NCBI RefSeq assembly: GCF_003932785.1
Contig: NZ_RQYT01000002.1
Span: 62,001-126,000 of the forward strand
From: Arachnia propionica
GTDB taxonomy: Bacteria > Actinomycetota > Actinomycetes > Propionibacteriales > Propionibacteriaceae
Length of the DNA stretch: 64,000 nucleotides
Direction of reading: 5' to 3'
The notes beneath the pieces are model-generated. The model was not told the origin of the DNA. It searched no databases and worked only from the letters and a program-made list of their open reading frames with translations. The position numbers were made by a program, and so were the translations under genes. Positions 15,225 through 48,988 of the stretch are shown here, piece by piece (positions within the stretch are counted from its first letter, which is position 1; every line of letters starts with the position of its first letter).

Positions 15225-15242
15225 TATCTTGATGTCAAGATA
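15225..15242. promoter_or_regulatory. 18-bp perfect palindrome upstream of acnA, probable operator
   Basis: TATCTTGA-TG-TCAAGATA is a perfect inverted repeat ending 28 nt before the acnA ATG. A TAAACT box lies about 60 bp further up (15161-15166), which would place the palindrome downstream of the start of transcription as a repressor site. Dimeric regulators of the MarR type bind sites of this size. Streptomyces TamR, which controls aconitase, is a candidate class, but I could not compare sites. Confidence 0.6.
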
Positions 15243-24482: not shown

Positions 24483-24524
24483 GTCACTCCCTTTCCAACA
24501 GTCAACGAAGCGACCCAGTCACGG

Positions 24525-24596
24525 TGGGCGATGGCGGTTTCGAACCGCCGACCTCTTCGGTGTGAACGAAGCGCGCTACCACTGCGCCAATCGCCC
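24525..24596 (-). tRNA. tRNA-Val (CAC)
   Basis: A 72-nt cloverleaf folds completely: a 7-bp acceptor stem starting GGGCGAT, an anticodon stem CTTCG/CGAAG with loop TTCACAC (anticodon CAC, reading GTG), and a T-loop TTCGAAA. The discriminator is A and CCA is not encoded. It is closely similar to the Val-GAC gene 440 bp away on the other strand. Confidence 0.95.
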
Positions 24597-24608
24597 GTGC
24601 GAGGTCAC

Positions 24609-24637
24609 ACACTACCCGAGCGACGTGAGCCTGACAA
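24609..24637 (-). promoter_or_regulatory. Promoter of tRNA-Val (CAC)
   Basis: TTGTCA, 17-bp spacer, TAGTGT on the minus strand, with the predicted transcript start a few bases before the tRNA 5' end. This is one of the best two-box promoters in the window. Confidence 0.7.
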
Positions 24638-24787
24638 TTCGACGGCGGTCCGCGGTGGCGCCCGGGGAGAGCTGAGATGGCCCTGCCCACCAGCAGACGG
24701 GGGGGAGGGGCTGTCCCCTCCGGGACCGTGGCGCATGTTTCCTGGCCCCGTCCAGCGGGGATTGGGCAGGTGCGTGGAACCGTGGAT

Positions 24788-24817
24788 TTGTGCATCGTCG
24801 AAACAGTGCGCTAGAGT
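24788..24817 (+). promoter_or_regulatory. Promoter of tRNA Gly-Cys-Val cluster
   Basis: TTGTGC, 18-bp spacer, TAGAGT, with a start near 24824 and tRNA-Gly beginning at 24868. Between this and the minus-strand tRNA promoter (24638-24787) I see no gene or RNA. Confidence 0.6.
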
Positions 24818-24867
24818 CCTCCATGCGCCGAACGCGACAGGCCGACAGGCAGGTCGAGGAAGTGCAT

Positions 24868-24940
24868 GCGGACGTGGCTCAGTTGGTAGAGCATCACCTT
24901 GCCAAGGTGAGGGTCGCGAGTTCGAATCTCGTCGTCCGCT
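24868..24940 (+). tRNA. tRNA-Gly (GCC)
   Basis: A 73-nt cloverleaf with acceptor GCGGACG/CGTCCGC, anticodon stem TCACC/GGTGA and loop TTGCCAA, so anticodon GCC reading GGC/GGT. T-loop TTCGAAT. The discriminator is T and CCA is not encoded. First gene of a three-tRNA transcript. Confidence 0.96.
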
Positions 24941-24958
24941 CGGAGACAAACTCCACCC

Positions 24959-25029
24959 GGTGGAGTGGCCGAGAGGCGAGGCAACGGACTGCAAATCCGT
25001 GTACACGGGTTCAAATCCCGTCTCCACCT
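24959..25029 (+). tRNA. tRNA-Cys (GCA)
   Basis: A 71-nt cloverleaf with acceptor GGTGGAG/CTCCACC, anticodon stem ACGGA/TCCGT with loop CTGCAAA (anticodon GCA). It has the T (U73) discriminator that identifies tRNA-Cys. The variable loop is short (4 nt) and CCA is not encoded. Confidence 0.96.
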
Positions 25030-25030
25030 C

Positions 25031-25105
25031 GGGCGGTTGGCGCAGTGGTAGCGCGCTTCCTTGACACGGAAGAGGTCGCCAGTTCAAACCTGGCATCGCC
25101 CACCA
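25031..25105 (+). tRNA. tRNA-Val (GAC), CCA encoded
   Basis: A 72-nt body with acceptor GGGCGGT/ATCGCCC (one G-T pair), anticodon stem CTTCC/GGAAG and loop TTGACAC (anticodon GAC, reading GTC/GTT), followed by discriminator A at 25102 and an encoded CCA at 25103-25105. Only 1 nt separates it from tRNA-Cys. Confidence 0.96.
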
Positions 25106-45845: not shown

Positions 45846-47249
45846 TCAGAAGTTGATCATGTGTCCACCGATGCCGTGGGCCGCCTCCTTGATCGCCTCG
45901 GAGAGCGTCGGGTGGGCGTGCACGGCGGCGGCGATCTCGTCCGTGGTCAGGTCGAACTGCTGCGCGAGGATGAACTCGGGGAGCAGCTCCGTCACGTCCG
46001 GACCGATCATGTGGGCGCCGAGGAGTTCGTTGTAGCGGGCATCGGCGACGATCTTGACGAAACCGATCCCCTCCCCCAGCCCCCAGGCCTTGCCGTTGGC
46101 GGCGAACGGGAACTTCGAGACCTTCACCTCGTAGCCCTTCTCCTTCGCCTGCTCCTCGGTGTAGCCGAAGGAGGCGATCTGGGGCTGGCAATAGGTCGCC
46201 CGCGGGATCATGTCGTAGTTGACCGGGTGGGTCTCGACGCCCGCGATGGTCTCGGCGGCCACCATGCCCTGGGCCTCCGCCACGTGGGCGAGCATCATCT
46301 TGGCCGTGCAGTCGCCGATGGCGTACACGCCCGGGACATTCGTGCGCATGTTCTCGTCGACGGCGATGGCGCCGCGCTCGGTCAGGGCGACGCCGGTCCT
46401 CTCCAGCCCGTAGCCCTCCGTCCGCGGCGCGAATCCGACGGCGGAGAGGAAGCGCTCGGCCTCGAGCACCTTCGCCTCGCCCCCCTTGGCGGGGCTCACG
46501 GTGACCTTCACGCCGGAACCGGTGTCCTCGATGCCCTCGACCTTCGTGCCGACGAGGACGTTGATACCGAGCTTCTTGTAGGCCTTGGTGAGTTCGGCGG
46601 AGACCTCGGCGTCCTCGTTGGGCACCATGCGATCCGCGTACTCCACGATCGTCACGTCGGTCCCGTAGGAGCGGAGCACGTAGGCGAACTCGGTACCGAT
46701 GGCGCCGGAGCCCCCGATGATGATCGATTTCGGCGCGGTCTCCGAGAGGATCTGCTCCTCGTAGGTGACGACGTTCTGCGACACCCGGGTCCCGGGGAGC
46801 ATCCGGGTGACGGATCCGGCGGCGATGATGATGTTGCGCCCCCGCACCTGCGTGGTCTCGCCGGAATCCTTCGCGACGTCGATGGTGTGGGAGTCGACGA
46901 AGGTGCCCCAGCCGTCGAACTCGGTGATCTTGTTCTTCTTCATGAGGAAGTGAATGCCCTTGGTCATCCGCTCCGAGACCTGCCGGCTGCGGCTGAAGGC
47001 CTTGCCATAGTCGACGGTGATGTCGCCCGAGATGCCGAACTGGTCGGCCTCCTTGGTGACGATGTGGGCGAGCTCCGCGTTGCGCAGCAGCGACTTGGTG
47101 GGGATGCACCCGACGTTGAGGCAGACCCCTCCCCAGTAGCGCTTCTCGATGATGGCGGTCCTCAGTCCCAGTTGAGCGGCGCGGATCGCGGCGACGTAGC
47201 CGCCCGGGCCCGCCCCGAGCACGATGACATCAAATTCTTGGGCAGTCAT
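45846..47249 (-). CDS. lpdA: Dihydrolipoyl dehydrogenase
   Basis: This E3 subunit reoxidises lipoamide in 2-oxoacid dehydrogenase complexes and glycine cleavage, passing electrons to NAD+. The 467-aa flavoprotein has [17 protein letters not shown] and the redox pair Cys43/Cys48 in [13 protein letters not shown]. The NAD motif is [16 protein letters not shown] and the acid-base pair lies in HAHPTLSEA near the end. ATG 47249 is 7 nt after a TAGAGT box; an in-frame ATG 9 nt upstream would lie against that box. The gene appears to stand alone, as in corynebacteria and mycobacteria. Confidence 0.95.
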
Positions 47250-47256
47250 GAACCCC

Positions 47257-47262
47257 ACTCTA
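47257..47262 (-). promoter_or_regulatory. -10 box of lpdA (leaderless)
   Basis: TAGAGT on the minus strand ends 7 nt before ATG 47249 and selects that start. Confidence 0.5.
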
Positions 47263-47363
47263 GGCCCTGTCGCGAAAGTAGCGCCAAGGTCGACCCGGTG
47301 GGGGGTGGCGAGTCAGGGCGTGCGACCGGGCCAGCCGGATGGGCGACAACCCTGTCAAACGGA

Positions 47364-47385
47364 TATCTCAAATATGAGATAGATT
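47364..47385 (+). promoter_or_regulatory. Palindromic operator overlapping -10 box of the HTH-MurA gene
   Basis: TATCTCA-AATA-TGAGATA (47364-47381) is a perfect 7-4-7 inverted repeat. Its last two bases open the -10 box TAGATT (47380-47385), which ends 6 nt before ATG 47392. The likely binder is the XRE helix-turn-helix carried by the encoded protein itself. Confidence 0.65.
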
Positions 47386-47391
47386 GCGTCC

Positions 47392-48930
47392 ATGACCGCT
47401 ACCAGCCAGTCCCTTGGAATCATGATCCGCGAGGCCCGCGTCGCACGCGGGTGGTCCCAGCAGCGTCTCGCTGATGAACTCGGCACCGCCCAATCCGCGG
47501 TCCACCGCATCGAGAACGGCCAGCAGAACCTCTCGCTCAACATGATCGACCGGCTGGCGGGGGCGCTGGACATGCCCCTCATCCAGGCGGCGACGGAGGG
47601 CAAGGTGAACTTCGAGATCACCGGCCCCACGACGCTCCAGGGGGAGATCGAGGTGCGCACCTCGAAGAACGCGGCCGTCGCGCTCCTGTGCGCGTCGCTG
47701 CTCAACCGGGGGCGGACGGTGCTGCGTGGGATCGCCCGGATCGAGGAGGTCGACCGGATCTGTGATGTCCTCGAGTCCATCGGGGTGAAGGTCAACTGGA
47801 TCGGCGGCGGCGATGACCTGGAGTTGATCCGCCCGGAGCGACTCACCCCCGAGAGCATCGACCAGAAGGCCGCCAGGCGGACACGTTCGATCCTCATGCT
47901 GCTCGGCCCCCTCATGCACGAGTTCGACACCTTCGAGCTTCCCTACGCCGGCGGGTGCGACCTCGGGGCGCGCACCGTCCATCCGCACATGTCGGCGCTC
48001 AAGAAGCTCGGGTTGTCCGTCGAGGCGCACGACAGCCAGTACCGGGCCACGGTCTCCCGGGATGGCGAGCCCGAACACCACATCACCTTGGTGGAGCGGG
48101 GCGACACGGTCACCGAGAACGCGATCATGGCCGCTGCCCGGACCCCGGGACTGACGGTGATCCGGAACGCCTCCGGCAACTACATGGTCCAGGACCTCTG
48201 CTTCTACCTCCGCAAGCTCGGCGTCGAGATCGACGGCATCGGCACCACCACGCTGCGGATCATGGGAGTGCCCCACATCGACGCCGACGTCGAGTACTTC
48301 ATCTCCGAGGACCCGATCGAGGCCATGAGCCTGCTCACGGCGGGGATCGTGACGCGCTCCCGGATCACCGTGCGTCGTTGCCCCATCGAGTTCCTCGAGG
48401 TGGAGATGGCCGTGCTGGCCGAGATGGGTCAGCGGTTCGAGGTCAGCGAGGAGTACACCAGCCGCAACGGGCTGACCCGTCTCGTCGACCTCACCGTCAT
48501 CCCGTCCGATCTCGTGGCCCCCCTCGACAAGATCCACCCCATGCCGTTCCCGGGGCTCAACATCGACAACCTGCCGTTCTTCGCCGTCATCTGCGCCATG
48601 GCGGAAGGGCAGTCGATCATCTACGACTGGGTCTACGACAACAGGGCGATCCACCTGAAGCGGCTCGCGGACCTCGGGGCCAACGTGACGGTCATGGACG
48701 CGCACAAGATCATGGTGATCGGCCCCACCAAGTGGCGAGGCCGGGACATCGAGTGCCCGCCGGCCCTGCGCCCTTCCGTGTGTCTGTTCCTGGCCGCCCT
48801 GGCGGCACGCGGCACGACCGTCCTCCGCGACGTGTACGTCATCAACCGCGGATACGAGGATCTTCCGCAGCGATTCAACCGCCTCGGCGCCCAGATCAAC
48901 ACCTTCTGGGGCGACGCGGCGACCGAATGA
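47392..48930 (+). CDS. XRE-type HTH fused to MurA-like UDP-GlcNAc 1-carboxyvinyltransferase
   Basis: This 512-aa fusion has residues 8-62 as a Cro/XRE helix-turn-helix (IREARVARGWSQQRLADELGTAQSAVHRIENGQQNLSLNMI). Residues about 73-508 are the EPSP/MurA double fold. MurA active-site elements are present: Lys92-Asn93 in TSKNAAVALL, and the Cys115 equivalent Cys189 in AGGCDLGARTVHPH, though the usual RPVDLH is changed. The DKIHPMPFPGLNIDNLPFF block is typical of this actinobacterial subfamily, which exists beside a normal MurA. Enzyme activity and DNA binding are both plausible and unproven here. Leaderless ATG start. Confidence 0.87.
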   Translation: MTATSQSLGIMIREARVARGWSQQRLADELGTAQSAVHRIENGQQNLSLNMIDRLAGALDMPLIQAATEGKVNFEITGPTTLQGEIEVRTSKNAAVALLCASLLNRGRTVLRGIARIEEVDRICDVLESIGVKVNWIGGGDDLELIRPERLTPESIDQKAARRTRSILMLLGPLMHEFDTFELPYAGGCDLGARTVHPHMSALKKLGLSVEAHDSQYRATVSRDGEPEHHITLVERGDTVTENAIMAAARTPGLTVIRNASGNYMVQDLCFYLRKLGVEIDGIGTTTLRIMGVPHIDADVEYFISEDPIEAMSLLTAGIVTRSRITVRRCPIEFLEVEMAVLAEMGQRFEVSEEYTSRNGLTRLVDLTVIPSDLVAPLDKIHPMPFPGLNIDNLPFFAVICAMAEGQSIIYDWVYDNRAIHLKRLADLGANVTVMDAHKIMVIGPTKWRGRDIECPPALRPSVCLFLAALAARGTTVLRDVYVINRGYEDLPQRFNRLGAQINTFWGDAATE

Positions 48931-48988
48931 GGTGAGCGCCGACTCCCCGAAGTGTGCAACTTGCCTGCACACCCGGGGGGAATCTTGT

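Follow-up and report, generated by a model that had tools for sequence, protein, structure and literature searches.

Comparative analysis of a fusion protein in Arachnia propionica, in which an XRE-type helix–turn–helix (HTH) domain is joined to MurA, indicates that this MurA very probably represses its own leaderless promoter and would belong among the trigger enzymes as a single-target member. The fusion would bind as a dimer to one 18-bp palindrome of its own promoter; the bound protein would fill the promoter spacer and overlap the −10 box, shutting out RNA polymerase. The first committed peptidoglycan enzyme would thereby hold down its own level through direct negative feedback, without any further target in the genome. 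Comparative evidence strongly favors regulation by the fusion of the transcription of its own gene, and from sequence comparison we infer DNA binding, dimerization, repression and catalytic activity of the protein.

Architecture of the HTH-MurA gene and its promoter

The window analyzed is a stretch of 64,000 nucleotides from a 3.49-Mb Propionibacteriaceae genome. The features on which the argument draws are as follows.

47358–47363, + strand: −35 position, AACGGA, a poor match to TTGnnn in A. propionica
47364–47381, no strand: operator TATCTCAAATATGAGATA, a perfect 7-4-7 palindrome (TATCTCA-AATA-TGAGATA), with an operator at this position in 235 of 245 orthologues
47380–47385, + strand: predicted −10 box TAGATT (consensus TANNNT), whose TA is also the end of the operator
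47392–48930, + strand: HTH-MurA fusion gene, ORF of 512 amino acids, ATG at 47392, probable leaderless start
47425–47580, + strand: XRE/HTH_3 DNA-binding domain, residues 12–63 (Pfam HTH_3, 1.6e-13)
47488–47511, + strand: recognition helix AQSAVHRI, residues 33–40, with Q[SG]A in 236 of 245 orthologues
47608–48903, + strand: MurA catalytic domain, residues 73–504 (PRK09369, 1e-95)

The sequence-only reading had described an XRE HTH joined to a MurA-like enzyme with Lys92-Asn93 and Cys189 kept, and both parts of that description hold. The N-terminal region belongs to the XRE/HTH_3 domain family (50.9 bits against a Pfam cut-off of 23), EPSP_synthase matches residues 77–493, PRK09369 scores over its cut-off and all three residues lie within MurA motifs. 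The closest named relatives of the protein are from Arachnia propionica OH887_COT-365 (91%) and Tessaracoccus species, and among solved structures its HTH is nearest to C.AhdI, C.BclI, HipB, SinR and the 434 repressor. An AlphaFold2 model built from 33 orthologues (mean pLDDT 87.7, pTM 0.87) gave an HTH of five helices (5–18, 23–30, 34–41, 49–58 and 62–67, with 34–41 as the recognition helix) joined by a short linker to the MurA fold; both domains were modeled confidently, the model being a monomer and hence silent on dimerization or gating. As judged by sequence and model, an intact enzyme and a DNA-binding domain are combined in one protein, which is the architecture of a trigger enzyme.

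The −10 box TAGATT begins with the operator's final two bases, and six nucleotides (47386–47391) separate this box from the ATG; every coordinate of the earlier claim that a palindrome overlaps a −10 box 6 nt before the ATG was verified in the sequence. In a logo of 57 non-redundant orthologues (<85% identical), the site reads TAtCTCa-tATr-TGAGaTA, with a left half-site that is degenerate in some lineages. The TANNNT element combines the operator's terminal TA with a T four bases further on (T in 100%, A in 96% and the final T in 89%; n = 57), and TTG is weakly favored at positions −6 to −4 counted from the operator (T 47%, G 40%, G 57%; n = 57). This placement leaves a 16-bp spacer to the −10 box, so that the operator fills the spacer and part of the −10.

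Because the operator covers the spacer and part of the −10 box, repression by the fusion is far more likely than activation. HTH proteins of the same class can activate, as C proteins such as C.AhdI do, and the fusion might likewise stimulate its own promoter; however, the site occupies a blocking position, and an essential enzyme that stimulated its own promoter and had no second one would be in danger of being shut off. We consider activation very unlikely.

The start codon lies 10–11 nt past the operator and 6–7 nt past the −10 box in 44 of the 57 orthologues. With so short a distance from the −10 box, the murA transcript is predicted to be leaderless, and the spacing across orthologues lends strong support to the leaderless promoter proposed earlier. 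In four loci, from Acidipropionibacterium and two neighboring genera, the operator and −10 box are shifted together 32–107 nt upstream, and a Shine–Dalgarno-like GAAAGGA precedes the start codon. The operator has thus kept to the promoter rather than to the start codon, which indicates that it marks the promoter.

Several features of the surroundings were also recorded. On the opposite side of the operator from murA, about 100 bp away, lies a divergent dihydrolipoyl dehydrogenase gene (45846–47258, − strand), whose promoter seems near-leaderless too (CTAGAGT near the start). Downstream of murA lies a glycerophosphodiester phosphodiesterase-like gene with an apparent −10, CATAAT, a few bases 5′ of an ATG. 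An inverted repeat between the murA stop and this gene (GTGTGCA-ACTTGCC-TGCACAC, 48952–48972) was absent from the close relatives examined. The downstream gene varies among close relatives; an operon was therefore rejected, and murA probably stands alone. Elsewhere in the window, a tRNA cluster at 24523–25105 encodes Val(CAC) on the − strand and Gly(GCC), Cys(GCA) and Val(GAC) on the + strand.

Specificity of the palindrome and its joint loss with the recognition helix

Perfect 7-4-7 palindromes are not enriched in the window (8 seen versus 8.9 expected), and palindrome abundance, being at chance level, was ruled out as evidence; the site was taken as an operator because of cross-genome comparison rather than palindromy alone. 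The specific motif TATCTCANNNNTGAGATA has an expectation of 0.0002 copies in a 3.5-Mb genome. Of 117 Propionibacteriales genomes, 45 contained it, each in a single copy (a palindrome scores on both strands), and comparison of gene coordinates placed all 45 exact sites just upstream of the HTH-MurA gene. A control pattern gave 0 matches in the same 117 genomes. Genomes without the exact motif mostly contain a 1- or 2-base variant at the same promoter place.

The sequence-only reading had also suggested that the enzyme reports to other wall genes, a suggestion that the genome scan did not uphold: at ≤2 mismatches, the A. propionica genome contains one site, with no second conserved site, and its 3-mismatch sites look like coding-sequence noise. 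The extra sites found at ≤2 mismatches in 21 genomes and at ≤3 mismatches in the A. propionica genome were sporadic and mostly of the form GATCTC/GAGATC, and a regulon was accordingly rejected.

Another of the window's perfect 7-4-7 palindromes, TATCTTGATGTCAAGATA, lies at 15225–15242 in the likely promoter region of an aconitase gene, 28 bp before its ATG (15271). This palindrome was absent from all HTH-MurA loci fetched and is possibly an operator for a TCA-cycle regulator.

Helix and operator were compared across 245 orthologues with non-identical MurA domains, drawn from Propionibacteriaceae, Nocardioidaceae, Kribbella, Actinopolymorpha, Streptomyces, Brachybacterium and others. An operator was called present if it had ≤4 mismatches of 14 and lay at the promoter, and the helix motif was defined as Q[SG]A. 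Both elements were present in 235 orthologues and both absent in nine; one orthologue had the helix only and none had the operator only. Apart from that one orthologue, palindrome and recognition helix are kept or lost together, a clearly positive answer to the question, raised in the sequence-only reading, of whether conservation of the palindrome follows the HTH. Both this conservation and the co-loss strongly support the self-operator that had been proposed from the A. propionica sequence. In the nine orthologues that have neither element, two of which come from the same genus, the recognition helix is decayed and a relic HTH domain persists beside an intact MurA part; one of them (L234) looks frameshifted in its assembly. 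The exception (L255) keeps QSAVAR and has only a right half-site, TGATCTA, before the −10 box, and its genome also carries a second, unfused MurA.

On a FastTree phylogeny of the MurA domain alone, the joint loss of helix and operator corresponds to about eight independent events; the helix changes eight times and the operator nine times. On well-supported branches there are six independent pairs, a modest number, and all point the same way (sign test, p ≈ 0.03). Base changes in the operator also follow the protein: where the second helix residue is Gly instead of Ser, which took four changes on the tree, 5/5 orthologues have TAACTCA....TGAGTTA, with both halves changed, compared to 2/228 of those with Ser. 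One sequence in this comparison has an A-to-C change at the outermost base. Joint loss together with residue–base covariation points to the HTH-MurA protein as the reader of its promoter palindrome.

Two other accounts of the palindrome were weighed against these data. In the first, the palindrome would be bound by a different XRE-type protein, with the fused HTH left as a relic; the many XRE proteins per genome, and weak HTH matches elsewhere in the A. propionica genome, would offer candidates. A separate regulator would not, however, track changes in the fusion's helix, whereas the operator is lost when that helix changes (9/9), covaries with its second residue and occurs once per genome, at the fusion gene. 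We judge binding by another protein to be highly improbable. The second account, in which the palindrome acts as an RNA structure or a core-promoter quirk rather than as a protein operator, could appeal to the palindromes of the same size that arise by chance in the window; but the palindrome lies upstream of the predicted transcription start, its half-site sequence is conserved beyond what pairing alone would require and it vanishes with the HTH helix, so that this account is hardly credible.

Enzyme identity, taxonomic range and possible ligand control

The enzyme domain scored 320.9 against the cut-off of 297 for PRK09369, an NCBIfam MurA subfamily, and matched MurA structures in the PDB with up to 186 bits (to 9.6e-54). 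The TIGR01072 murA equivalog score was 307.8 bits, below the cut-off of 392.7; the exact equivalog label was therefore withheld and the protein is treated as one of a divergent subfamily. Practically all of 209 orthologues retain Lys92, Asn93, Cys189, Arg194, Asp307, Asp392, Arg418, Arg460 and Arg486, and Lys22, Asn23, Cys115, Arg120, Asp305 and Arg397 of the Escherichia coli enzyme correspond to Lys92, Asn93, Cys189, Arg194, Asp392 and Arg486 here. The position of E. coli Asp369 is occupied by Ala458 (48763–48765) and by Ala throughout the HTH-MurA family. In E. coli, Asp369 has been linked to fosfomycin and PEP binding (PMC4062475, PMC4790336), and its substitutions to lower fosfomycin susceptibility (PMC4790336). 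With Ala at this position, fosfomycin or PEP may be bound differently across the HTH-MurA family.

PF00275 detected only two genes in the A. propionica genome, AroA and the HTH-MurA fusion. The same pair alone was found in nearly all Propionibacteriaceae and Nocardioidaceae checked, the exceptions being split genes or fragmentary assemblies. Both families make peptidoglycan, and the fusion is the sole candidate for the MurA step; it should therefore be an active MurA, and we infer that it works as a UDP-GlcNAc enolpyruvyl transferase. Six Propionibacteriaceae without helix and operator still have the fusion as their sole MurA, which indicates that the enzyme can do without the HTH and that the HTH is conserved for the sake of the operator. 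Kribbella, Actinopolymorpha relatives and some others contain an additional, unfused MurA of about 30% identity.

The distribution of the fusion within its class is patchy. Among 148 genomes sampled evenly from the class, it occurred in eight of about 40 families drawn and was absent from most; the families of Kribbella and Actinopolymorpha also have it besides those eight, and in one further family of the class it was found in 36/40 genomes. In an even draw of 80 genomes of the phylum, no match <1e-100 fell outside its own class.

UDP-GlcNAc, PEP, the product or fosfomycin bound in the MurA cleft might alter HTH dimerization and switch repression, making the fusion an active-site-gated autorepressor. 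Such gating would extend plain self-repression rather than oppose it. An intact enzyme domain and the reader of the enzyme's own promoter are parts of one polypeptide, both domains are modeled confidently by AlphaFold and known trigger enzymes are mostly ligand controlled (PMC8249747); on the other side, no coupling is visible in the sequence, and plain feedback on the enzyme level requires no ligand. We regard gating as plausible and somewhat short of probable.

Relation to known regulators and significance

Enzymes with DNA-binding domains of their own are a known kind. PutA is a trigger enzyme with a single target at its own gene (PMC8249747), and BirA is a ligase and HTH repressor (PMC6391492). 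As in these proteins, a metabolic enzyme with its own DNA-binding domain would repress the promoter of its own pathway. HTH-MurA differs in being a peptidoglycan enzyme, with a MurA fold and an XRE HTH, and in having its operator within the predicted leaderless promoter of the gene that encodes the enzyme. PutA and BirA are known to be under ligand control; HTH-MurA may be.

BzdR/BoxR resemble HTH-MurA in the combination of an N-terminal XRE HTH with an enzyme domain, which in their case is of the shikimate-kinase type, and NCBIfam PRK08154 matches the HTH part of the HTH-MurA fusion. For BzdR, loss of enzyme activity was essential for becoming a regulator (PMC3602430). HTH-MurA, by contrast, retains its catalytic residues and is the only MurA in the genome, and it was therefore not placed among noncatalytic regulators of the BzdR type. 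The HipB operator, TATCCN8GGATA (PMC3376134), has the same 18-bp TATC...GATA frame, and HipB has an HTH of the same XRE subclass (E 0.001; TIGR03070 couple_hipB matched the fusion at 1.4e-12 but below its cut-off). HipB is, however, a separate antitoxin with four operators, whereas HTH-MurA has one operator and its HTH lies within the enzyme.

The Streptomyces fusions fetched share architecture and operator with HTH-MurA of A. propionica; Streptomyces differs in having a second, unfused MurA. SCO5998 of Streptomyces coelicolor, presumably the orthologue, has been called MurA2, one of two UDP-GlcNAc transferases (PMC12161575), and a SigB promoter and a DmdR1 site have been proposed for it, with no autoregulation described there (PMC8346170, PMC12161575). 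A description of HTH-MurA autorepression was not found in open-licence literature, and an older or subscription paper may exist. The trigger-enzyme kind is thus already known, and MurA as its own repressor is apparently new within the open-licence literature.

MurA commits carbon to peptidoglycan and is the target of fosfomycin. Known control at the MurA step is mostly post-translational, through ReoM/ClpC in Firmicutes and CwlM in mycobacteria. A group of actinobacteria seems instead to place a sensor of MurA level in MurA itself, with one dedicated operator per genome, and feedback at the entry to the cell wall becomes open to direct test with a single protein and a single 18-bp DNA. The roughly eight lineages without the loop form a natural series for asking when self-repression of an essential enzyme pays. 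If gating by the active site were true, the first committed wall enzyme would read precursor supply or antibiotic attack and reset its own transcription in cis, as a one-protein feedback loop for fosfomycin and wall precursors across actinobacteria.
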